Assembly (NCBI GenBank): GCA_018058685.1
Contig: JAGOZL010000010.1
Location: 1-35,357 of the forward strand
DNA from: Sulfurospirillum sp.
GTDB lineage: Bacteria; Campylobacterota; Campylobacteria; Campylobacterales; Sulfurospirillaceae
Direction of reading: 5' to 3'
DNA length: 35,357 nucleotides
Each line of letters opens with the position of its first letter. Within the stretch, counting starts at the first letter, position 1. A model generated the notes under the pieces. The model saw nothing but the letters and a program-made list of their open reading frames with translations, made no database searches and was not told the origin of the DNA. Positions 2,490 through 35,209 of this stretch are shown here, piece by piece. The translations under genes were made by a program, and so were the position numbers.

Positions 2490-2564
2490 ACATAAAAATA
2501 TCTCATTTTTTATTACTTTTAGGTTTTGGCTTTTTTAAGCTCGTTTTTACATACTTCATGCAAA

Positions 2565-2593
2565 AATAACACTAATTTAATATCAGTATTATT
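2565..2593. promoter_or_regulatory. Inverted repeat upstream of the nickel operon, possible NikR-type operator
   Basis: AATAACACT (2565-2573) and AGTATTATT (2585-2593) form a 9-11-9 inverted repeat with one mismatch, 16 bases before the nikK start codon. Position and AT-rich dyad form fit an operator overlapping the promoter. The left arm resembles, from memory, NikR sites of Helicobacter. That the binder is NikR is an inference; no nikR gene is in the window. Confidence 0.45.
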
Positions 2594-2609
2594 TATGAGG
2601 AGTATTTGT

Positions 2610-3356
2610 ATGAAAGTATTACTAGCATCACTTGTGTGTGCATCGTCGTTGTTTGCCCATTTCCAAACTGTTATGACGGATAAAACGGTCATTGAACAAG
2701 GTGGAAATCCTAAAGTTACGATTCACTATGAATTTACACACCCATTTGAGCAAGAACTCATGCATATGGAAAAACCCAAAGAAGCAGGTATCTTTAGTGA
2801 GGGTAAAAAAACCTCTCTTCTTTCAAATCTTCAACTCGTGCAAAAAGACAAGTTAAGCAGTTGGAAAAGTGAATATGTGATTAAAGAACCCGGTGTTTAT
2901 CAACTTTATGTTGACCCCATTCCTTATTTTGAGCCCTCAGAAGAAAAATTTATCCGTCATCAAACCAAAACAATCATCGATGCTTTTGGTTCAGGGGAGG
3001 GTTGGGATCAGCCTATTGGACTAAAAGCAGAGATTATTCCTCTTGCTCGTCCTTATTCACTTTATGCAGGAAATCTTTTTAGCGGACAAGTCCTCTACAA
3101 AGGAAAACCTGTTCCCAATGTAGAAATCGAGTATGAATTTTACAACACCAAAGGTTTTAAAGCTCCCAATGATATGTACATCACGCAAGTGGTCAAGGCT
3201 GATAAAAATGGTATTTTTCATGTAGCGCTCCCTGAAGAAGGTTGGTGGGGTTTTGCCGCATTGATGGAAGACGATGAAAAAATTAAAAAAGATGGAAAAA
3301 GCTATCCAATAGAATTGGGTGCTGTACTTTGGATTAAAACAGAAGCGATGAAATAG
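2610..3356 (+). CDS. nikK: NikK-like exported nickel-binding component (DUF4198)
   Basis: A 248-residue exported protein of the DUF4198/NikK type that accompanies ECF nickel transporters and probably presents Ni(II) to the membrane part. A signal peptide is clear (MKVLLASLVCASSLFA), and cleavage after FA would leave a mature N-terminal histidine (HFQTV), a plausible metal ligand. The body is predicted mainly beta (TVIEQGGNPKVTIHYEFTHPF and GKPVPNVEIEYEF, an Ig/carboxypeptidase-regulatory style repeat). ATG 2610 is preferred over an in-frame ATG at 2526 because it has GAGGAG at 2597-2602 and a proper signal peptide. It is the first gene of nikK-M-L-Q-O; the nikM start follows one base after its stop. 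The function rests on this context as much as on sequence. Confidence 0.85.
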   Translation: MKVLLASLVCASSLFAHFQTVMTDKTVIEQGGNPKVTIHYEFTHPFEQELMHMEKPKEAGIFSEGKKTSLLSNLQLVQKDKLSSWKSEYVIKEPGVYQLYVDPIPYFEPSEEKFIRHQTKTIIDAFGSGEGWDQPIGLKAEIIPLARPYSLYAGNLFSGQVLYKGKPVPNVEIEYEFYNTKGFKAPNDMYITQVVKADKNGIFHVALPEEGWWGFAALMEDDEKIKKDGKSYPIELGAVLWIKTEAMK

Positions 3357-3357
3357 T

Positions 3358-3963
3358 ATGCATTTAAGCGAAGGGATTTTAAAACCTGAGATTTTAATGG
3401 TAGGTGCAGGTATATCGGCTGTGCTTACCTTTTATGCTTTTAAGACACTCAAAGATGAAGAAATCCCCAAAACTGCTGTTCTCTCAGCACTCTTTTTTTT
3501 AGCTACCTTTATTCATATCCCCATTGGTCCAACCTCTGTTCATCTGGTTTTAGGTGGCTTGGTTGGTGCACTTTTAGGAATGCGTGCTTTTATTGCGATT
3601 TTTGTTGCTTTGTTACTTCAAGCTCTTTTATTTGGCTTTGGAGGCATCACGACACTGGGTATCAATCTTTTCAATCTTGCCACGCCTGCACTTCTTGCAG
3701 GATTTCTTTTCACGATACCCGTTAAACACGCATGGCAAAAAAATATACTTTGGTTTGCGTTAGGATTTATCCCTTTATGCCTTTCAGCACTTTTACTCTC
3801 TTTGACACTTTCTCTCAATGGTGAATTATTTGTTGATGCAGCAAAACTAGCACTTTTAGCGCATCTTCCTGTGATGATTATCGAAGGGTTGATAACACTG
3901 TTTGCACTGCGTTTCATTGAAAAAGTCTCTCCTGCTTTATTATTACATGTAAAGAAACACTAA
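3358..3963 (+). CDS. nikM: NikM/CbiM-type substrate-specific ECF component
   Basis: The membrane S-component that binds the metal in energy-coupling-factor nickel/cobalt transporters. The protein begins MHLSEGIL, the family N-terminus in which the amino group of Met1 and the ring of His2 are metal ligands, which fixes the start at 3358. Several hydrophobic helices follow, with FIHIPIGPTSVHLVLGG near residues 56-72 containing the further conserved histidines. Length 201 is normal. Nickel rather than cobalt is inferred from the accompanying NikK and NikL proteins and the absence of cobalamin genes or CbiN. An exact TTACATGTAA lies at 3943-3952 and encodes the C-terminal LHV. The stop overlaps the next start (TAATG). 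Confidence 0.92.
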   Translation: MHLSEGILKPEILMVGAGISAVLTFYAFKTLKDEEIPKTAVLSALFFLATFIHIPIGPTSVHLVLGGLVGALLGMRAFIAIFVALLLQALLFGFGGITTLGINLFNLATPALLAGFLFTIPVKHAWQKNILWFALGFIPLCLSALLLSLTLSLNGELFVDAAKLALLAHLPVMIIEGLITLFALRFIEKVSPALLLHVKKH

Positions 3964-4373
3964 TGCGCTTCTTTCTCCTTTTCACACTTTTTTTTACGTC
4001 ATCACTGTTGGCACACAAGCTCAATATTTTTGCTTATGATGAAGCGGGGAAGCTTTTTATACACAGTTATTTTACAAAATCATCTCCTTGCAAAGGGTGT
4101 CAAGTCTACCTCTTGGATGAAAATCAGCATGAATTAACACAAACAAAGACGAATGATGAAGGTAAGGTGTCACTTTCATTACCTTCTTCTTCCTTTTTCA
4201 TTGTCGTTGAAGCGGGCATGGGGCATCAGCAACAGATTCATTATATCGCTCAAAGTGAACCAAAAAAAGAGCCAACGGAACATGCATGGGTTAAAATAGC
4301 ATTAGGACTTGCTATAATTTTCCTTTTCTTTGGAGTCTTAACGTGGTTCAAAAAACACCCTCTATCTCGATAA
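3963..4373 (+). CDS. nikL: NikL-like auxiliary membrane-anchored component
   Basis: A 136-residue protein with a signal peptide (MRFFLLFTLFFTSSLLA), then HKLNIF, again a histidine at the predicted mature N-terminus as in NikK. It has an extracytoplasmic beta domain with CKGCQVYLLD and DEGKVSLSLP, resembling a small carboxypeptidase-regulatory fold, and one C-terminal membrane helix (IALGLAIIFLFFGVLTWF). This is the NikL layout, which replaces the two-helix CbiN of cobalt systems. Its exact role is unclear; it is thought to be needed for full transporter activity. It overlaps nikM by one base, and its end overlaps nikQ by 31 bases. Confidence 0.8.
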   Translation: MRFFLLFTLFFTSSLLAHKLNIFAYDEAGKLFIHSYFTKSSPCKGCQVYLLDENQHELTQTKTNDEGKVSLSLPSSSFFIVVEAGMGHQQQIHYIAQSEPKKEPTEHAWVKIALGLAIIFLFFGVLTWFKKHPLSR

Positions 4374-5020
4374 CCCCTAGTATTGCACTGCTTTTAGCGC
4401 TTAGTTATAGCACTATCATTGCTTTACAAACCCATCTTTTTTTTCCTATGCTTTTTCCTTTGATATTTATGATGATGATTGCACGTAGCCATTGGGTTAT
4501 ACTTTTAAAGCGTCTTTTTTGGCTCAACACCCTTATCCTCTTAGTCGTACTCACCCTTTTCATACAAAATAACGTCTCTCTTGCATTATTGATTTTTATA
4601 CGCTCAAACCTTATCTTGGCGTTTATTCTTTTACTTTTTTACGATAAAGATGAGTTTGCCATCTCTTTAGGGATGCGACAATTACGATTTCCACACAAGC
4701 TTACAGCCCTTTTTTTCTTTACTGCTAAGTCTATTTTCCTTATCAAAAGAGAGTTTGAGCTTTTTAAAAACACCTTACATGTAAGAGGTTTTTCTCCTAA
4801 AACAGACCTTCTCACCTATAAAACGATGGCTGGCTTTGTGGGTATTTTATTGATAAAAGCACTGGAGCGTTCAACACAGCTTCAAAAAGCAATGCACCTT
4901 AGAGGGTTTAAAGGCGAAGTTTACACACTAAACTCCCACGTCACTCTCTCTGGCTATGATATACTCTTGTGTGCTATAACGCTTCTAGCCCTTACTTTAC
5001 GAATAGGAATGTTGATATGA
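4343..5020 (+). CDS. nikQ: NikQ/CbiQ-type ECF transmembrane (T) component
   Basis: The T-component coupling the ATPase to NikM. The 225-residue protein has several hydrophobic helices in its first 105 residues, then the two short coupling-helix motifs with conserved Arg-Gly: LHVRGF (Arg148) and MHLRGF (Arg187), which insert into the ATPase dimer in ECF transporters. Start GTG at 4343 is chosen because GGAG (4332-4335) lies seven bases upstream and the next ATG would remove the first helix; it makes the gene overlap nikL by 31 bases. The first Arg-Gly motif is partly encoded by an exact TTACATGTAA (4775-4784). The stop overlaps the nikO start (ATGA). Confidence 0.9.
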   Translation: MVQKTPSISITPSIALLLALSYSTIIALQTHLFFPMLFPLIFMMMIARSHWVILLKRLFWLNTLILLVVLTLFIQNNVSLALLIFIRSNLILAFILLLFYDKDEFAISLGMRQLRFPHKLTALFFFTAKSIFLIKREFELFKNTLHVRGFSPKTDLLTYKTMAGFVGILLIKALERSTQLQKAMHLRGFKGEVYTLNSHVTLSGYDILLCAITLLALTLRIGMLI

Positions 5021-5735
5021 GTTGTTCTGTCACACTTAAAAATCTCTCCACCTCACGTGAAGGTATTCAACTGTATCAAAACATTACGCTTGATGTCTCA
5101 CATAAAGAAAAAATTGCTATTATTGGACCTAATGGCTGTGGTAAAACAACACTGCTTGAGACCATTGCAGGGCTTCGTGGCATCGAACAAGGAACCTTAG
5201 AACTCTTCCACAAACCGATGCTCTGTGCGAATGATTTTAAAGTTATGCGCCCTTTAATAGGCTATCTTTTTCAAGACTCTGACAATCAATTTTTAGCACC
5301 TGTTGTCGAAGATGATGTTGCCTTTAGTTTACTTGCCCTTGGCGCAACAAAAGAAGAGGCAAAGCTTAAAACAGCGATGATACTTCAAGATTTAGGGATT
5401 TCGCATTTGGCTAAAAAGATTGTCTATCATCTCTCAGGTGGAGAAAAAAAGCTTGTTGCACTAGCTGGTGTATTGATTGTTGAGCCAAAACTGATGCTTC
5501 TTGATGAGCCGACCAATGGCTTAGACCATGCGATGCAACTACGTTTAATTGAGATTTTACGTAAAATTGATAAAAGCATTATCATTGTCTCACACCACAA
5601 AGAGTTCATTGAATCTGTGGTTGAGAAAATATATGAAATTACGCCGCAAGGCTTAGTTTGCTCTATCAATATTAGAAATGAGCACGCCCATGACCACCAT
5701 CATCATCATCACGACCATGATGGTCATCATACGCA

Positions 5736-5739
<4 letters not shown>
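5017..5739 (+). CDS. nikO: NikO/CbiO-type ECF ATPase with histidine-rich tail
   Basis: The ABC ATPase that powers nickel uptake. In the 240-residue protein Walker A is GPNGCGKT (37-44), the Q-loop is FQDSDNQF (Gln86), the signature is LSGGEKK (139-145), Walker B is LMLLDEP (159-165) and the switch histidine is in VSHHKE. The last about 20 residues are almost all His and Asp (HAHDHHHHHHDHDGHHTH), a cytoplasmic metal-binding tail not part of the ABC fold. It could buffer incoming Ni or sense it; that is inference. ATG 5017 overlaps the nikQ stop; an in-frame ATG at 4969 lies inside nikQ. The gene ends tail to tail with pdxA, sharing four bases (5736-5739). Confidence 0.93.
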
Positions 5740-7601: not shown

Positions 7602-7976
7602 ATGCTAACATTTCGTGTCGATAAAGAAAACAATATTTTATTTATTAATATTATTGGCATGACTCCTAAAGATAAACTAGCAGAGTATATTAATGAGTTT
7701 AGTCAAAAATGTTCAGAGTTTAAAAAAGAGTTTATTATCGTCAACGATATGAGTTTATGCAAAATCTCTTCTGAGTATGATGTTGAGGTCATGTGTAAAT
7801 TAAGCCAGATGATGCTTCAAAAGTTTTCTATCTCAAAAGTCATTAGAATAACAGGGGCAAATACTGAAAATTTAAAAAAATTGATGCGCACCGATAAAAA
7901 AATCGGACTTCAAAATATTCACTACGCTTCAACACGCAAAGAAGCTGAAGCCCTTTGGTCTAAGGTAAGCGAATAA
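7602..7976 (+). CDS. Conserved-looking small cytoplasmic protein of unknown function
   Basis: A 124-residue protein I do not recognise. It has no signal peptide or membrane helix. The N-terminus MLTFRVDKENNILFINIIGM, with alternating hydrophobic residues, then a helix (KLAEYINEFSQKCSEF), a strand (EFIIVNDMS) and a later helix/strand pair ending in ISKVIRITG, suggest an alpha/beta fold of STAS-like size; that is a shape impression, not an assignment. ATG 7602 has AAGGAAG just upstream, whereas an in-frame ATG at 7554 lies in the -10 region. It stands alone between divergent and convergent neighbours, and its last 17 bases overlap the cytochrome b gene on the other strand. Confidence 0.75.
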   Translation: MLTFRVDKENNILFINIIGMTPKDKLAEYINEFSQKCSEFKKEFIIVNDMSLCKISSEYDVEVMCKLSQMMLQKFSISKVIRITGANTENLKKLMRTDKKIGLQNIHYASTRKEAEALWSKVSE

Positions 7977-9087
7977 GTGCATTATCAAAAATACCGTATT
8001 CAAAATTTTGGTGACAAACAAAACAGTTTGATTTATCTTTCACCTCAGGATGTTTAAAAAACGAATCATCGATATGCCGATGTGCTTCACGCCAATAGGG
8101 TGATTTTGTGATAGAAATAGGGCGCATCTCTCCTAACGATTCTAAGGTTTTAAACGCTAACTTATGCGTTGAGCTCTCCGCACTATTGCCCACCAAATAA
8201 GCTCGAATGCTCTTCTGATCTGGTTTAGAAATATTATGCTCTAAAATCTCTTCACCGAAATGATTGTGCAACCCATCCATCAATTTTTCCCATGATGCTT
8301 GAGGTAACATAAAAGGAGGGTAGTGTTTATGACACTTACCACACTTGATATCAAAAGCATGATTTTCTTCAGCATAGACTTTTTTTTGAAAAACACTGCT
8401 TGTGAATAAACTCTCATGTTTAAATGCTACCGTATAAAAAATACCGCATGCTAAAATGATTGCGCTATACGCTAAGAGTTGATGTAAAAATGAGATAGAA
8501 GTATCATCTCCCTCACAACGTTTATAGCCTGAGAGCATGGCAAAAACCATCTGTGTTTTATGATAAAACTGCTCAATTAACACACCAAAAATATGAATAA
8601 ATGCCCATACCAATAAAATAAAAGAGACAATCCGATGGAAGTGGTCAATATAAAAACTTTTAGAAAAATAGTTTGCATTTAAAAAACCAAAAAAACCACT
8701 GCCTTCTTGAATACCATACAATAAAAGACCACTAAAGACAATACTGAGTCCCAAACTAAGAACAATCAATGTAAACCAACTAGAAGCAGGATTGTGTCCT
8801 GGATGAATTTTACGCCAACGATTTTTAACTTTTTCTTCAAAATAGAAGCGTAATGCATCTAAGCGCCATGTAAACATCATAAATGTACCATAATCTGGAC
8901 CTATAAATCCCCAAAGAAGCCTAAAAAGAAGAATAACTCCAAAAAGATAACCAAACGCACTATGCAGTGTAAAGTAGTGATGAAAAAAAGCCGTTATGAA
9001 AGAAAATAAAAAAGAGAGTGCAAGCATCCAATGAATGATGCGTGTACACAAGGGCCAAACGTAAACTAAGCCTTTTTTTTGATGCAT
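7960..9087 (-). CDS. Cytochrome b561-type membrane protein fused to a two-haem c domain
   Basis: A 375-residue membrane electron carrier. The N-terminal about 225 residues have around five hydrophobic helices with histidines spaced for b-type haems (IIHW, HSAFGYLFG, HFHRIVS, FIHIFG), like the cytochrome b561 family. The C-terminal about 135 residues carry two c-haem motifs, CGKCH (249-253) and CFVCH (355-359), resembling the dihaem cytochrome c (DHC) domain that in other bacteria is encoded beside a b561 protein; here both are one chain. It probably links the quinone pool to periplasmic c haems. It lies last in the module with the SQR-like flavoprotein and the cytochrome c lipoprotein, after a 16-bp hairpin. 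The ribosome site is weak. The 3' end overlaps the convergent gene by 17 bases. Confidence 0.85.
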   Translation of the reverse strand: MHQKKGLVYVWPLCTRIIHWMLALSFLFSFITAFFHHYFTLHSAFGYLFGVILLFRLLWGFIGPDYGTFMMFTWRLDALRFYFEEKVKNRWRKIHPGHNPASSWFTLIVLSLGLSIVFSGLLLYGIQEGSGFFGFLNANYFSKSFYIDHFHRIVSFILLVWAFIHIFGVLIEQFYHKTQMVFAMLSGYKRCEGDDTSISFLHQLLAYSAIILACGIFYTVAFKHESLFTSSVFQKKVYAEENHAFDIKCGKCHKHYPPFMLPQASWEKLMDGLHNHFGEEILEHNISKPDQKSIRAYLVGNSAESSTHKLAFKTLESLGEMRPISITKSPYWREAHRHIDDSFFKHPEVKDKSNCFVCHQNFEYGIFDNALIRLP

Positions 9088-9100
9088 TTAAAAACACTTT

Positions 9101-9136
9101 ACTATTTTTTGATGGGAAATCCCATCAAAAAATAGT
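9101..9136 (-). terminator. Perfect 16-bp hairpin between the two cytochrome genes
   Basis: ACTATTTTTTGATGGG (9101-9116) and its exact complement (9121-9136) are separated by four bases. It sits in the 61-base gap after the cytochrome c lipoprotein gene and before the cytochrome b gene on the minus strand. The T-run is within the stem and the tail after it is poor in T, so it may be a partial terminator or mRNA-stability element that lowers b561 expression relative to the upstream genes. Confidence 0.6.
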
Positions 9137-9148
9137 GCTTTTACATTT

Positions 9149-9523
9149 TTATTTAGCACGATTAAACGAATTGTAAATATAATTTGCCATCGCTTTAACA
9201 TCGTATTCGTAGCCTTTTTCTTTGAGCTTTTTCATATTATGTTCCATAACATCATGCTCACTCGCTGTTGACTGCCCAAGTCCACCATTTTTGATATCAA
9301 ACAAGTCCATCTCAAGTTCAGGAATGGTTTTTTTATCAATCGCAGGCCCTTTTTTCTCAGGCATTCCTTCGCCTTTATCACCATGACAATGCGCACATGT
9401 TGCTTTATACACTTCAGCAGGTGTGTATTTATATGTAACAATATCTGACTTTGGTTTATCTCCACAGCCACTTAGAACCAACATCGTAGTAAGCGTAAAA
9501 AGCGTTAATGTTATTTTTTTCAT
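9149..9523 (-). CDS. Monohaem cytochrome c lipoprotein
   Basis: A 124-residue exported class I-like cytochrome c. The N-terminus MKKITLTLFTLTTMLVLSGC is a lipoprotein signal with lipobox LSGC (Cys20), so the protein should be lipid-anchored on the periplasmic side. The haem site is CAHCH (43-47), followed by GDKGEGMPEKKGPAI; later methionines, for example in DVMEHNM, could be the distal ligand. The C-terminal AMANYIYNSF is the helix typical of this fold. A good ribosome site (AAGGAAAA) precedes ATG 9523. It lies 30 bases after the SQR-like gene and is its likely electron acceptor or donor; that pairing is inferred from position. Confidence 0.9.
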   Translation of the reverse strand: MKKITLTLFTLTTMLVLSGCGDKPKSDIVTYKYTPAEVYKATCAHCHGDKGEGMPEKKGPAIDKKTIPELEMDLFDIKNGGLGQSTASEHDVMEHNMKKLKEKGYEYDVKAMANYIYNSFNRAK

Positions 9524-9553
9524 AAGTTTTTCCTTTTATTATTATAACTAAAA

Positions 9554-11023
9554 TTAAGCTCTGCCTGAAAGCATACCGTAAATTGTCATTGGTTTGAGAG
9601 CATACACTTTAAGTAACCACCAAATCCAACGTTCTTGTGAAGGATCAAGAGGGAAAGAAGGTGTAGGCTTTGCTGTCCAATTAAATTCAGCTAACATGAC
9701 TGTTCCAAGACTAGTAATCAACGGACACACTGTATAACCATCATACTTTGCAGGCAAGGCCTCTTTTTTCTCCATAACAGCAATGAGATTTTCAGCCACA
9801 ACATTGTATTGCTTTCGTGCACTTCCTCCCGTTTTTCCCATTGGAACAGCAGCCACATCACCCAGTGCAAAAACATTTTTATACGTGACATGTTGTAAGG
9901 TTTCTTGAACCACAGGTACCCAGCTTTTTGCTGATCCAATTGGAGATTTACCAACAGCATCGGGTGCTTTTTGAGGAGGGGTAATATGGATAAAATCATA
10001 CTTTTTCTCGACGTTTTTACTCATCGAAATCATTGTGTATTCTTTAAGATCCTCATCGAATTCACCTTTTTCAAGCCATTTTTTCTCAAATGTAGCTATT
10101 TTTTTCTCTGTATCGATGGCAACCAGATTGGTTTTAAATTCCCATTTAAAATCTCTTACCTTAAATTGTTCAAAAATAGCCGTGTTATATTCAGGTACAC
10201 CGAACATTTTATCACCACTCGGAAGGAAAATGAGCTCTACTTTATCTCTTACACCTGCCTTAACTAATAAATCATGCACGATATACATAATCTTTTTAGG
10301 GGCACCTCCACACTTAATCGGTGTTGCTGGATCGCTAAAAAGTGCTTGAAGCTTTTCAGCCCCTTTATGTGCTTTTGCTTTGACAATCAACTCTTGGATA
10401 CCTTTGTATGTATCAACTGCACCATCAGCAAAATAGATAGAATAAACCCCGTTTTTACCTACTTTTTGTTTTACAACATCATTGGCACCATACGATGTAA
10501 TGACACCTTCCAATCCTTTAATCGCAGCAAAATCAAGCACCAATCCTGTTGCCACAACCATATAGTCATAACTAATTTCTTGTCCACCCGATGTTTTGAC
10601 AGTGTTACTTTTTGGATCAAAAGAGACAACACTCTCTTTAATCCACTTCACACCTTTTGGCATAAATTTTTCTGTTTCGTACTCAATGTCACTTTTTTGC
10701 CATACACCGCCAGCAATAAGTGTTTGCCCAGGTTGATACGAAACCGATTTGGGATTAGGCTCGATAATGGTTATATCAGGATTTGAAAGTCTACTGGTCA
10801 GTTTAGCCGCCGTAGCAACACCCGCTAACCCTCCACCAACAATCAAAATTTTTCCCTTTGCATCTGATGCTGCGAGTGCTTCTGTCGCTGTTGTCGTACT
10901 TGCGAGTACACTTGCGGCAACAGGAGAAACTGCTAAAAACTTCATCGCATCACGACGTGACATCACACCTTCGTGCTTTTCAATATCGCGCAGAATCTCT
11001 TCGATGATTTTGTCTGACTTCAT
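9554..11023 (-). CDS. Tat-exported sulfide:quinone oxidoreductase-like flavoprotein
   Basis: A 489-residue FAD protein of the SQR / flavocytochrome c sulfide dehydrogenase superfamily. A twin-arginine signal is present (MSRRDAMKFLAVSP, Arg23-Arg24, then an Ala-rich stretch), so the folded enzyme should be exported, unlike most SQRs. The Rossmann motif ILIVGGGLAGVATAAKL follows at 59-75. There are exactly two cysteines, Cys238 in TPIKCGGAPKK and Cys433 in TVCPLITSLG, at the positions of the redox disulfide of SQRs. NVFALGDVAAVPMGKTGG is the second FAD site, and a Trp-rich amphipathic end (SQERWIWWLLKVYALKP) would sit on the membrane. ATG 11023 is preferred over ATG 11056 because AAGGA lies seven bases upstream. 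It leads the cytochrome module. Sulfide or polysulfide is the expected substrate, not proven. Confidence 0.82.
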   Translation of the reverse strand: MKSDKIIEEILRDIEKHEGVMSRRDAMKFLAVSPVAASVLASTTTATEALAASDAKGKILIVGGGLAGVATAAKLTSRLSNPDITIIEPNPKSVSYQPGQTLIAGGVWQKSDIEYETEKFMPKGVKWIKESVVSFDPKSNTVKTSGGQEISYDYMVVATGLVLDFAAIKGLEGVITSYGANDVVKQKVGKNGVYSIYFADGAVDTYKGIQELIVKAKAHKGAEKLQALFSDPATPIKCGGAPKKIMYIVHDLLVKAGVRDKVELIFLPSGDKMFGVPEYNTAIFEQFKVRDFKWEFKTNLVAIDTEKKIATFEKKWLEKGEFDEDLKEYTMISMSKNVEKKYDFIHITPPQKAPDAVGKSPIGSAKSWVPVVQETLQHVTYKNVFALGDVAAVPMGKTGGSARKQYNVVAENLIAVMEKKEALPAKYDGYTVCPLITSLGTVMLAEFNWTAKPTPSFPLDPSQERWIWWLLKVYALKPMTIYGMLSGRA

Positions 11024-11159: not shown

Positions 11160-11208
11160 CGAAACCTATGATTAAGTCTTTTTTTCATACAATTATTTAA
11201 ATTTTTTG

Positions 11209-11445
11209 ATGAAAGTATTTTATATGTTAAAAAAAGAATTATTGATTTTTAGTGTCTTATTTTTATTTCTTGCTTTGGGTATGCACATGACCCAGTGGCT
11301 AAGTCATCCTCTTGAACACCTCAATCATTTAGCAACCCACAAAATGCCTTATCATCCTTTACTCTACACCTTTTTACTTTATCTTGTAGTTGCGATTTTA
11401 CGTGGTTTCTGGCTTATTATAAGAAAAATTTTCAGCAAATCATAA
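11209..11445 (+). CDS. Small two-helix membrane protein, unknown
   Basis: A 78-residue protein I do not recognise. There are two hydrophobic segments: LLIFSVLFLFLALGMHM and LLYTFLLYLVVAILRGFWLII. They are joined by a loop rich in His (HPLEHLNHLATHKMPYHP) that would face the periplasm if the basic ends stay inside. The start is uncertain: ATG 11209 or ATG 11224 (73 residues); neither has a strong ribosome site, and a possible -10 box TACAAT at 11188-11193 favours the later one. Its stop is three bases before the Ppx/GppA gene, so they are probably cotranscribed. The clustered histidines might bind metal or haem; this is a guess from composition. Confidence 0.65.
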   Translation: MKVFYMLKKELLIFSVLFLFLALGMHMTQWLSHPLEHLNHLATHKMPYHPLLYTFLLYLVVAILRGFWLIIRKIFSKS

Positions 11446-31095: not shown

Positions 31096-31113
31096 CCTTT
31101 AAAGGTGGTTAAT
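31091..31113. terminator. Nested inverted repeats at a convergent junction
   Basis: ATTAACC (31091-31097) pairs with GGTTAAT (31107-31113), and the 12-bp palindrome ACCTTTAAAGGT (31095-31106) lies inside. Both convergent genes end within it, with three bases between their stop codons. A compact bidirectional terminator is plausible. Confidence 0.4.
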
Positions 31114-31845
31114 AATGCTCGCGTTATATGCCGCACCAAAGCCATTGTCGATATTGACGACACTCACACCACTTGCACAGCTATTGAGCATAGAAAGAAG
31201 TGCTGCAACGCCTCCAAAACTAGCACCATAACCTACACTGGTAGGTACAGCGATGACAGGTTTATCAACCAAACCTCCAATAACACTAGCAAGTGCTCCC
31301 TCCATCCCTGCGATGACGATGACCACTTTAGCTTTTTGAATGACCTCTAAATATGCGAACAAACGATGAATCCCCGCGACACCCACATCGACTATTTTTG
31401 TAACGTGATTACCTAAAATGCGAGCTGTCTCATAGGCTTCCTCTACCACATACAAATCAGACGTTCCTGCTGCGACAATGGCGATGTAACTGGGAGGTGG
31501 TGTCGTGATCTCGCGCTCGATGGTGATGGTTCGACCCATTACATTGTATTTGGCTTCAGGAGCGATGCCTTGAACGGCTTTATACGCCTCTTCATTGGCG
31601 CGGGTGATGAGAATGTTATTGTCACGATCGAGCAATTTTTGGGTAATTTGAGCGATCTGATCAGGCGTTTTACGCTCACCGTAAATCACTTCAGGATAGC
31701 CCAAACGAACCCCTCGATGATGGTCGATTTTGGCAAAGTCTAACTCTTCAAAGGGTTGCGCTTTGATCTTTTGGAGTGCGTCTGTAACACTCACTTCGCC
31801 CTTTTGCACAGATTCTAAAAGTTTTTCAATGCTTTGTCCACACAT
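31099..31845 (-). CDS. larB: LarB, pyridinium biscarboxylic acid mononucleotide synthase
   Basis: Carboxylates and hydrolyses nicotinic acid adenine dinucleotide to the pyridinium-3,5-biscarboxylic acid mononucleotide, the first step of nickel-pincer nucleotide synthesis. The 248-residue length fits. The N-terminus (LESVQKGEVSVTDALQKI) leads to the PurE-like domain: DHHRGVRLGYPEVIYGERKT near 41-60, IVAAGTSDLYVVEEAYETA, VGVAGIHRL, VIAGMEGALASVIGGL and PVIAVPTSVGYGASFGGVA. AGGAG precedes ATG 31845, which directly follows the larE stop. It is last in larA-C-E-B. Confidence 0.95.
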   Translation of the reverse strand: MCGQSIEKLLESVQKGEVSVTDALQKIKAQPFEELDFAKIDHHRGVRLGYPEVIYGERKTPDQIAQITQKLLDRDNNILITRANEEAYKAVQGIAPEAKYNVMGRTITIEREITTPPPSYIAIVAAGTSDLYVVEEAYETARILGNHVTKIVDVGVAGIHRLFAYLEVIQKAKVVIVIAGMEGALASVIGGLVDKPVIAVPTSVGYGASFGGVAALLSMLNSCASGVSVVNIDNGFGAAYNASIINHL

Positions 31846-32649
31846 TTAGGCTCCTAAATTTAAAGATTCTGCAACAGAATTGTGTCGATAGCCTTCAAGA
31901 TCAAGCGTTACATGTAAAAATCCAAGCGACTTAAGATGTGCACACATTTCATTCAATCGTTGGTCTTTTAAAAGATGAAGCGCGTGCGATTGGGGCATTT
32001 CAATCCTTGCCAACCCCTCTTCATAACGCACGCGTATGTTGCCATAGCCTTGTTCTATCATGTATCCCTCCGCCATTCCTACCATGCCCATTGCTTTTTC
32101 ATCAATGATTTTATCGTAAGGAAACCGCGTCAGTAAGCACGCATAAGAGGGTTTATCCCATGTGGAGAGCTCCATATCTTTGGAAAGTGCGCGTATCTCC
32201 TCTTTGGTCAGCCCCACATCGAGAAGTGGCGTTTTGATGCCAAGCTCACCCAGTGCCACGCGACCGGGTCGGTACTCTTTGGTATCGTCAACATTACTCC
32301 CTTCGGCTACGGCGCTAAAACCTTTTTGTTTCGCGACGTCAAGGAGTGAAGAGAAGAGGGCGTGTTTGCAGAGGTAACATCGGTTTTTAGGGTTCTCACG
32401 AATCGCTTCGATCCAAGGTTTAACAACGACTTCATGACATGCACCGATCTCATCGGCGATGCAAATCGCATCTTTAACTTCCCAATCTGCAATATACGGT
32501 GTTGATACTGTAATACCGATGACTTTGTTTCCCAAAACATCATGCGCCGCTTTGAGCAAAAAACTGCTGTCAACACCACCCGAAAAGGCGACCACAAGGC
32601 TGTCGTAAGAGCCGATAATTTCCACTAAACGTTCGTATTTTTTATACAT
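31846..32649 (-). CDS. larE: LarE sulfur insertase, three-cysteine type
   Basis: ATP-dependent enzyme that turns the two carboxylates of the LarB product into thiocarboxylates. A 267-residue PP-loop protein: VAFSGGVDSSFLLKAA at 19-34, NVDDTKEYRPGR, and PSYACLLTRFPYDKI. Cys171 in that last motif matches the sacrificial cysteine of the Lactiplantibacillus enzyme. In addition there is a CxxC pair, Cys91 and Cys94 (NRCYLCKHA), absent from that enzyme. The three together match the type, known from Thermotoga maritima, that holds a [4Fe-4S] cluster and may carry sulfur catalytically instead of sacrificing its cysteine. It overlaps larC by eight bases. An exact palindrome lies at 31908-31917. Confidence 0.94.
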   Translation of the reverse strand: MYKKYERLVEIIGSYDSLVVAFSGGVDSSFLLKAAHDVLGNKVIGITVSTPYIADWEVKDAICIADEIGACHEVVVKPWIEAIRENPKNRCYLCKHALFSSLLDVAKQKGFSAVAEGSNVDDTKEYRPGRVALGELGIKTPLLDVGLTKEEIRALSKDMELSTWDKPSYACLLTRFPYDKIIDEKAMGMVGMAEGYMIEQGYGNIRVRYEEGLARIEMPQSHALHLLKDQRLNEMCAHLKSLGFLHVTLDLEGYRHNSVAESLNLGA

Positions 32650-33829
32650 TTTCTTTTCCCATCGCTAAAGTGACACTTTCATAGACCAATGTTATGGGCA
32701 CATTATGTTCACGTGCGGCTTTTTTGCACTCTTCGTATTCGGCTTTGTATTTCACGCGTTTCCCCTCAAAATAGGCACATTTGACACTAATCTCACCGTA
32801 AGGCGTTTTTACATGTAAAACGTTACGCTCCAACGCAATTTTTTGAACCAACGAGCGTCTAAGCCCAATAGATGTTGTCTCCGAAAAGATAATGCGCTTC
32901 GCCTCAGCTTCTTTGTCCAGACTGACTAGGACACTGAGCTTCACACCCAAACGGTTTTTCTTTGTCGTAATGGCAGTCGTGTAGACATCTTTCACACCCG
33001 CTTCAAACAGTTGCTCTTGTACAAAAGAGAGTATTTCAGGGCTCATATCGTCGATATTTGTCTCTAAAATAACCTCTTCGTCCACGCGCTCCTCTTCCTC
33101 GCCCAAATAGACACGCAAAACATTGGGAATACTAAAATCCTTATGCCCGATGCCATATCCGATCTTCTCAATCACCAAAGAGGGCTTAGCTTCATACGCA
33201 TCGACATTGGCTTTGAGAATGGCAGCACCGGTGGGCGTTGTTGTTTCAGAAGCCACGCGTCCTAGGGTGATAGGTACGTTTTGAAGGATTTCTACGGTTG
33301 CAGGAGCAGGCACAGGAAGCGTACCATGCGCACACGTAACAAATCCACCACCTAATTCAATTTTTGAAGCGATTATCTTTTTTACATGTAAAGCTTCCAA
33401 ACAGATGGAAGCGCCCACAATATCGACGATGGAGTCAATCGCACCCACTTCGTGAAAACCAACTTCATCAGGCGCTTTACCGTGGATTTTCCCCTCCGCT
33501 AAAGCGACTGTCCAAAACATCTTCAAGCTTCGCTCTTTGATGCTTTGAGCCAGCGTACTAGCATTGATAATCGCTTCAATGCTTTTAAAGGTTCGATGTT
33601 CATGTGTATGCGGATGTGCGTGCCATTGAGGTATTAGTTTAACGCTCACTTTAGTTCCACTAATACCCATTTTACTAGCTTTTTCAATAACCAATTTAAA
33701 GGCAAAATTCAAAGAGAGCTTGGAGAGTTCTTGCCTTAAATATTCTTCTTCCACACCCAAATCCAGTAGTGCGCCTAGATTCATATCGCCGCTGATACCA
33801 CTAAAGCAATCGTAGTAGAGAACTCTCAT
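32642..33829 (-). CDS. larC: LarC nickel insertion protein, single frame
   Basis: CTP-dependent cyclometallase that inserts Ni into the pincer nucleotide. The 395-residue protein has the family start YYDCFSGISGDMNLGALLDLG, a histidine-rich loop WHAHPHTHEH near residues 69-78, GFHEVGAIDSIVDIVGA, the GGGFVTCAHGTLPVPAPATVE segment and TNIDDMSPE in the C-terminal part. LarC1 and LarC2 form one continuous frame here, whereas the Lactiplantibacillus gene needs a ribosomal frameshift. It starts 14 bases after the larA stop. Two exact palindromes lie inside (32809 and 33382). Confidence 0.95.
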   Translation of the reverse strand: MRVLYYDCFSGISGDMNLGALLDLGVEEEYLRQELSKLSLNFAFKLVIEKASKMGISGTKVSVKLIPQWHAHPHTHEHRTFKSIEAIINASTLAQSIKERSLKMFWTVALAEGKIHGKAPDEVGFHEVGAIDSIVDIVGASICLEALHVKKIIASKIELGGGFVTCAHGTLPVPAPATVEILQNVPITLGRVASETTTPTGAAILKANVDAYEAKPSLVIEKIGYGIGHKDFSIPNVLRVYLGEEEERVDEEVILETNIDDMSPEILSFVQEQLFEAGVKDVYTTAITTKKNRLGVKLSVLVSLDKEAEAKRIIFSETTSIGLRRSLVQKIALERNVLHVKTPYGEISVKCAYFEGKRVKYKAEYEECKKAAREHNVPITLVYESVTLAMGKENV

Positions 33830-33843
33830 ATTTATCCTTAAAC

Positions 33844-35103
33844 TTAGTTACTCACGACTTTGGGAACCGTAATTGAACCAAAAGGAAGCACGATGATACT
33901 CGCGTTTTCACCTTTTTCTTTAATCGCCTCAGCGAGTGCTACATGTAAATCATGGTAAGGCTTTAAATGTACCGCTTTCATCTCTTCATCACTCAGTTCA
34001 CTGACCGCCCAACTTTGCGCCCAAAGGTTGATTTCCGCCATTTTTGCCGCCTTGTGGTAGCCTAGTTTGTAACCGCATTTGATTTTATTGAGCACTTCTT
34101 GTGGGCAGTGCGCTGAACTCATCAGTTTAAAGAAACCCTCTTCGCCGATGCCCGTACGACATTTCGCAACCATGATGAGAATACCTTTGTCTTTAAGCGC
34201 TAATTTACCATTATCCAGTGCTTTTTGAGACTGATAGAGGTCGATGTCCATCGGATAGGGAGCAACAGAGATAACGATGTCTGCTTTTTGCGGAATATTC
34301 ACACAAAAAACTTCATCGGCTTTATCAATCGCAGCGTAAAACGAATCACTCAAATCGCCTGCCGTTACAGCACAAATGTCATGATCGCTGTCCAAAACGG
34401 TCATAATCGCAAAGACATCAATGTGGCTTAACACGTTCATCGCGTCCATCATATCTTCATGCACAGGATTGCCTTTTAAGCAGAGCGCTTGAGCATTGGG
34501 ATGAAGCGCTAAGAGGTGATTTTGCTCAATCGTCTCAAATGCCGCAACACCAGGTAAAAACGCTTTGCGTCCACCCGTGTAACCTGCAAAATAGTGCGGT
34601 TCTACAGAGCCAATTGCGCAGACTTTCTTCGCTTCAGCAACGATTTTATTGAGGTACATTTCTGTGCCATTGGTGGATTTTCCAAGATATACCATCGTAT
34701 CCTTGCGTGAATCGTGACTCCAAAGGCGATTCTTTACATGTAAATCTTCGTAGATCTCTTTGCCTAAGATAAAATGCCACTCTTCTTCGGTAGGTGCGCG
34801 ATGACAGCCCGTTGCAACGATAAAATAGATATCTTTGTCTTTAACTTTGGGGTACATACGTGCGAGCACTTTACGCGTTGGAGTAGGGCGCGTGCCATCA
34901 TTGACGATGAAAACAATACGCTCATCGGTGTCGATAAAATGATCGAAACTCTCTTTGCCAAGAGGCTGCACAAGCGCTTCATCAAGTGCTTGATTGTAGT
35001 CAATTTTAGCAACACTATTAGGGTTATAAACACCCACCAGTTGTTTCTCGCATATCTCTAACTCAAATGTTTCATCTTTGCCATAACCAACACTTACTTT
35101 CAT
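33844..35103 (-). CDS. larA: LarA-family nickel-pincer racemase
   Basis: Racemase or epimerase of 2-hydroxyacids that uses the nickel-pincer nucleotide. The 419-residue protein keeps the residues known in lactate racemase: His101 in ATGCHRAPTEEE, His170 and the cofactor lysine Lys180 in SVEPHYFAGYTGGRKAF, and His196 in TIEQNH, with spacings 170-180-196 equal to 174-184-200 of the reference enzyme. NDGTRPTPT (69-77) carries the substrate arginine. The substrate is uncertain, because LarA homologues also include malate and other racemases; the adjacent hydro-lyase suggests considering a C4 acid. ATG 35103 has AAGGAT six bases upstream and is preferred to ATG 35160. An exact palindrome is at 34734-34743 and a one-mismatch copy at 33939. 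Confidence 0.93.
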   Translation of the reverse strand: MKVSVGYGKDETFELEICEKQLVGVYNPNSVAKIDYNQALDEALVQPLGKESFDHFIDTDERIVFIVNDGTRPTPTRKVLARMYPKVKDKDIYFIVATGCHRAPTEEEWHFILGKEIYEDLHVKNRLWSHDSRKDTMVYLGKSTNGTEMYLNKIVAEAKKVCAIGSVEPHYFAGYTGGRKAFLPGVAAFETIEQNHLLALHPNAQALCLKGNPVHEDMMDAMNVLSHIDVFAIMTVLDSDHDICAVTAGDLSDSFYAAIDKADEVFCVNIPQKADIVISVAPYPMDIDLYQSQKALDNGKLALKDKGILIMVAKCRTGIGEEGFFKLMSSAHCPQEVLNKIKCGYKLGYHKAAKMAEINLWAQSWAVSELSDEEMKAVHLKPYHDLHVALAEAIKEKGENASIIVLPFGSITVPKVVSN

Positions 35104-35209
35104 ACAATATCCTTTATCATATTTATTTTTTGAACAAAAAACCTCTTTAATTTTTATCACTACCTAACATTATCAAAGAGTGCGGAAGGATTTTTTTGAA
35201 TTAAAGAGC

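Follow-up and report, generated by a model that had tools for sequence, protein, structure and literature searches.

The closest described relatives of the locus analysed here are the type II sulfide:quinone oxidoreductases (SQRs), flavocytochrome c sulfide dehydrogenase (FCSD; FccAB/SoxEF), the SHP operons and the polysulfide/thiosulfate reductases PsrABC/PhsABC. All examined type II SQRs of Epsilonproteobacteria bear a twin-arginine translocation (TAT) motif (Han and Perner 2015, PMC4584964). A chimera of cytochrome b561 and a dihaem cytochrome c (DHC), termed CytB/mDHC, is known from the SHP context and is recorded in S. deleyianum, W. succinogenes and A. butzleri (Meyer 2010, PMC2909971). 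The window, a stretch of 35,357 nucleotides from Sulfurospirillum sp. (assembly GCA_018058685.1, contig JAGOZL010000010.1, positions 1 to 35,357), carries on its minus strand, at 7960-11023, a triad encoding a flavoprotein, a cytochrome c lipoprotein and a b561-DHC fusion, in that order. This triad is a real, conserved module in which known parts are combined in an apparently new way.

The flavoprotein gene occupies 9554..11023 on the minus strand and encodes 489 aa from its likely start. The open reading frame (ORF) extends to 11056, giving 500 aa; the ATG at 11023, with AAGGA upstream, is the likeliest start and coincides with that of an initial annotation of this DNA, which had described an SQR-like protein with two cysteines. 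Both features are borne out. The only cysteines of the protein are C249 and C444 (ORF numbering); both are invariant, together with the twin arginines, in 17 divergent homologues. The best solved relative in sequence is human type II SQR (1.6e-70), and the segments holding the redox cysteines, TPIKCGGAPKKIMY and YTVCPL, have human counterparts in the alignment, the two cysteines corresponding to human C201 and C379. The AlphaFold model (pLDDT 83) matches human SQR 8dhk with a Z of 48.3 and 1.5 Å over 392 residues, whereas other SQR types and flavocytochrome c reach a Z of only about 36-37 (flavocytochrome c 36). Sequence and modelled fold place the flavoprotein among the type II SQRs and not with flavocytochrome c. 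Flavocytochrome c, initially named as the nearest concept, gives way to type II SQR (Z 36 against 48, 1e-19 against 1.6e-70), and membership in the flavocytochrome c family was rejected on its lower rank in both sequence and fold. The FCSD flavin-binding C-terminal domain, PF09242, is not among the Pfam matches of the flavoprotein, and a search of the genus genomes returned none, with none in the control genomes either. The layout nevertheless recalls FccAB/SoxEF, in which a periplasmic flavoprotein of the same superfamily also stands beside a cytochrome c, export being a prediction here; the window differs in that its flavoprotein is nearer to SQR, its cytochrome is a lipoprotein and a quinone-type b561 protein is added.

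The twin-arginine signal assigned at the outset is present at the N-terminus as an SRRDA motif followed by a hydrophobic stretch, and TatC is found in all 24 genus genomes. Export had been taken for an oddity among SQRs; given the survey by Han and Perner, it is instead the rule for campylobacterotal type II SQRs. The fold, both redox cysteines and the FAD motif are common to the window SQR, human SQOR and the campylobacterotal enzymes, and the Tat motif is common to the last. The window SQR differs from described type II SQRs in having, as linked genes, those of the cytochrome c lipoprotein and the b561-DHC chimera as well as that of a two-helix membrane protein. At the C-terminus, a helix is predicted at 477-495, in which W480 is invariant and W477 nearly so among the 17 homologues. 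The alignment of the model with the human enzyme stops at human residue 435, leaving the end of the SQOR C-terminus without a counterpart. Across the genus, the flavoprotein is 78-88% identical to its counterparts, and named organisms with relatives include S. cavolei and S. diekertiae. Window-type SQR is the only SQR found in 17 of the 24 genomes; six more also possess a second SQR, which its sequence suggests to be type VI-like, and one genome (86% complete) has none.

The second gene (9149..9523, minus strand, 124 aa) begins after a gap of 30 nt and encodes a monohaem class I cytochrome c with a lipobox, LSGC, and a single CxxCH motif, CAHCH, matching Pfam Cytochrom_C (PF00034) at 1e-6, in line with the lipid-anchored cytochrome of the initial annotation. 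In other genera, a secreted protein of 104-107 aa is encoded near SQR (L062 9717-10040, L101 3277-3591, L106 6391-6714); it looks like a cytochrome c minus its CxxCH, and the one copy scanned against Pfam (L106) gave no match.

The third gene (7960..9087, minus strand, 375 aa, two CxxCH) encodes the fusion of cytochrome b561 (PF01292, 1e-16) with a DHC domain (PF09626, 1.1e-29). The fusion had been recognized from the start, and corresponds to the known CytB/mDHC chimera. Its DHC part matches the solved DHC of R. sphaeroides (8e-16). The invariant histidines 19, 42, 151 and 165 are candidate ligands of haem b, and His 276 and 336 of haem c. Among 299 Campylobacterales genomes, 30 of 31 high-scoring genes of the SQR type are no more than 15 kb from an SQR gene, and 28 are no more than 1.5 kb away, while a paralogous second b561-DHC group is mostly located away from SQR. 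The SQR-linked chimera forms a separate subgroup, with E below 1e-150 against 1e-95 to 1e-123 for the other group. In genome G023, the second-group chimera adjoins genes for a dihaem cytochrome (DHC) and DUF1924 (SHP), at a locus separate from the triad. The b561-DHC fusion is thus shared with SHP operons, but no SHP gene stands beside the SQR-linked chimera, and the window cytochrome c matches PF00034, not DUF1924 (PF09086). Assignment to the SHP operons was rejected on the missing DUF1924 cytochrome and the distinct chimera subgroup.

The three genes had been proposed to form a unit, and the synteny survey shows them to be co-conserved. The triad occurs in its own genome and in 21 of 22 genus relatives with SQR, the remaining locus being cut by a contig end, so that all 22 testable loci carry it. 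Sulfurovum-like and Arcobacter-like genomes also carry it, and on the SQR tree (FastTree) it appears in several separate branches; the ‘b561’ label requires 11 changes there, compared with the 34 expected when labels are shuffled. The flanking genes are pdxJ and ppx in Sulfurospirillum and others in other lineages. Conservation within the genus and beyond speaks against chance juxtaposition, and the persistence of the triad across separate SQR branches amid differing flanks indicates that the linkage is selected.

In the mechanism that we favour with moderate confidence, the triad is a periplasmic sulfide-oxidizing module delivering electrons through cytochrome c and b561-DHC to menaquinone. 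The Tat system would export the folded, FAD-loaded SQR, which would sit, by way of the tryptophan-rich helix at its C-terminus, on the periplasmic side of the cytoplasmic membrane and oxidize HS− to polysulfide or persulfide using C249, C444 and FAD. Electrons would exit to the lipid-anchored cytochrome c and on to the dihaem domain of b561-DHC, then pass over two b haems across the membrane to menaquinone, making nitrate or low oxygen usable as the final acceptor. The tight gene pairing and the haem motifs are what suggest this route. While the gene content, export motif, catalytic cysteines, fold, haem motifs and co-conservation were established in the analysis, we infer the substrate, the oxidative direction, the carrier order and the menaquinone contact. 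Oxidation appears the likeliest direction, since the window-type SQR is the sole one found in most of the genus and growth of S. deleyianum on sulfide and nitrate is on record (Eisenmann 1995, as cited in PMC3035281).

Several observations weigh against this mechanism. Cytochrome genes are missing alongside many close SQR relatives, so that the cytochromes resemble an added module rather than an indispensable part, and such same-family enzymes suggest that the SQR may reduce menaquinone directly. In one genus genome (G015), the cytochrome c gene is frameshifted by a deletion of ~23 bp (L019 3021-3369) next to an intact SQR and b561-DHC. The invariant M93 of the cytochrome would be compatible with a high-potential haem ligated by Met, from which electron transfer to menaquinone would be uphill. 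Between the cytochrome c and b561-DHC genes, a hairpin with a 15-bp perfect stem (9102..9135, minus strand), conserved in the genus, shows compensatory changes at 10 of 13 pairs among 17 genus sequences, and its covariation score of 0.425 compares with 0.167 for shuffled sequences and with no more than 0.135 at slid positions. A short T-run follows it in the window and is absent in most relatives; terminator-like sequences occupy the same interval in some other genera. The hairpin may set differing levels of the SQR-cytochrome c pair and b561-DHC, and by splitting the two these elements imply that b561-DHC may be separately expressed.

The cytochrome-less relatives, the probable Met ligation and the G015 frameshift together make direct reduction of menaquinone, as by human SQR, a strong rival, although on balance we consider it unlikely. 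Here cytochrome c and b561-DHC would be co-regulated with the enzyme and serve a parallel route of the quinol or cytochrome c pool, for example with the polysulfide reductase encoded after them in relatives, and the two-helix protein may dock SQR on the membrane. The nearest fold, that of a quinone-reducing SQR, the position of the hairpin, and the association of the two-helix protein with SQR across the 299 genomes are consistent with such a division. It accords less well with the cytochrome c gene lying 2-36 nt after SQR in most loci, a pairing that recurs in separate SQR clades, or with the placement of a class I cytochrome lipoprotein right behind a flavoenzyme, a common layout for an electron acceptor.

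In several other genera, the gene run extends past the triad into genes for a PsrA/PhsA-like molybdopterin protein, a 4Fe-4S PsrB-like protein and an NrfD-type PsrC-like protein, all collinear with SQR, cytochrome c and b561-DHC (L069 11316-15599; also L131, L132, L134-L136 and L142). The PsrA/PhsA-like protein matches NCBIfam PhsA at 2.7e-144, a score under the cut-off of that model, and bears a twin-arginine motif in the loci where it was read. Other members of the SQR family adjoin SoxC/SoxD, a triple-rhodanese protein or a SoxH-like metallo-beta-lactamase. Polysulfide/thiosulfate reductase follows the triad in these genera but does not adjoin it in Sulfurospirillum, where PsrA relatives (at most 71% identical) are found at other loci of other genomes; the window's own genome (86% complete) contains distant PsrA relatives only. 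The reductase, SoxCD, rhodanese and SoxH-like neighbours point to sulfur metabolism. The sulfur role initially assigned is retained on the strength of these neighbours.

In a reversed flow, menaquinol would reduce b561-DHC, cytochrome c and finally the flavoprotein, which would act on polysulfide, sulfur or persulfide. The reductase operon downstream in relatives could be read in this way, as could the b561-DHC chimera of SHP operons, which is thought to move quinol electrons outward (PMC2909971), and sulfur respiration is known in the genus (PMC3035281). However, the reduction of polysulfide already has an assigned enzyme, PsrABC, whose relatives occupy those other loci in the genus, and the SQR fold and cysteines fit a sulfide-oxidizing enzyme. 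Electron transfer from menaquinol to polysulfide is, moreover, energetically uphill, and we regard the reversed flow as improbable. A role outside energy conservation, with the module serving to detoxify sulfide, to sense sulfane sulfur or to act on a thiol or some other sulfur compound, seems more improbable still. The rhodanese and metallo-beta-lactamase proteins in the clusters of relatives would suit it, and the literature proposes that type II SQRs take part in assimilation, metal tolerance and signalling (PMC4584964); the ties to respiratory-type membrane cytochromes, PsrABC and SoxCD suggest respiration instead.

Divergent from the SQR gene, at 11206..11445 on the plus strand, lies the gene for the small two-helix membrane protein of 79 aa, which the initial annotation did not count in the set. 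Its predicted structure consists of a helical hairpin and a short interfacial helix (pLDDT 86), and H27, P35, H50 and P51 are invariant in the family. It has no match in Pfam or NCBIfam, no relative was found in a plasmid collection, and it seems to be an undescribed companion of SQR in many relatives. Among the 299 genomes, relatives of this protein occur in 132 and SQR in 170, with both present in 126 (odds ratio 58.7; Fisher p 1.2e-37, a value that overstates independence because the genomes are akin). Of 136 gene copies, 77 are within 300 bp of SQR, and the linkage holds whether the gene is located upstream, downstream or several kb away. The co-occurrence marks the protein as a partner of SQR, and a role in docking or in binding quinone or haem is our guess. 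In a more far-reaching extension of the favoured mechanism, which we hold to be quite doubtful, the triad is the electron-input half of a sulfide-driven redox loop resembling that of formate dehydrogenase-N. The b haems would then reduce menaquinone on the inner side, building membrane potential, and the His-bearing 79-aa protein would be a membrane subunit of Tat-exported type II SQRs that has so far gone unrecognised.

Elsewhere in the window, 31099-35160 (minus strand) encodes a lactate racemase (Lar_N/LarA_C) adjoining LarB/LarC-like genes (AIR carboxylase domain, nickel insertion protein), and a PP-loop protein in this interval may be LarE. Cobalt/nickel transporter genes (DUF4198, CbiM and CbiQ) are situated at 2526-5739 on the plus strand.

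A search of the open-access literature, a scope that leaves most subscription journals outside and does not amount to proof of absence, found no published description of the three-gene unit. Han and Perner (2015) had already published the Tat motifs of campylobacterotal type II SQRs, and Meyer (2010) the b561-dihaem chimera. New are the continuation of the triad into a polysulfide/thiosulfate reductase operon in relatives, the co-occurrence of the 79-aa protein with SQR, the covarying hairpin and the status of the window-type enzyme as the sole SQR found in most of the genus. The 79-aa protein offers a way in to the question of how Tat-exported SQRs dock on the membrane. In conclusion, the triad, with the only SQR detected in most genus genomes, is a concrete candidate locus for the growth of S. 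deleyianum on sulfide and nitrate. If the favoured mechanism holds, electrons from SQR would pass through haems rather than straight to quinone, which would change how much energy sulfide oxidation yields in a phylum of ecological importance.

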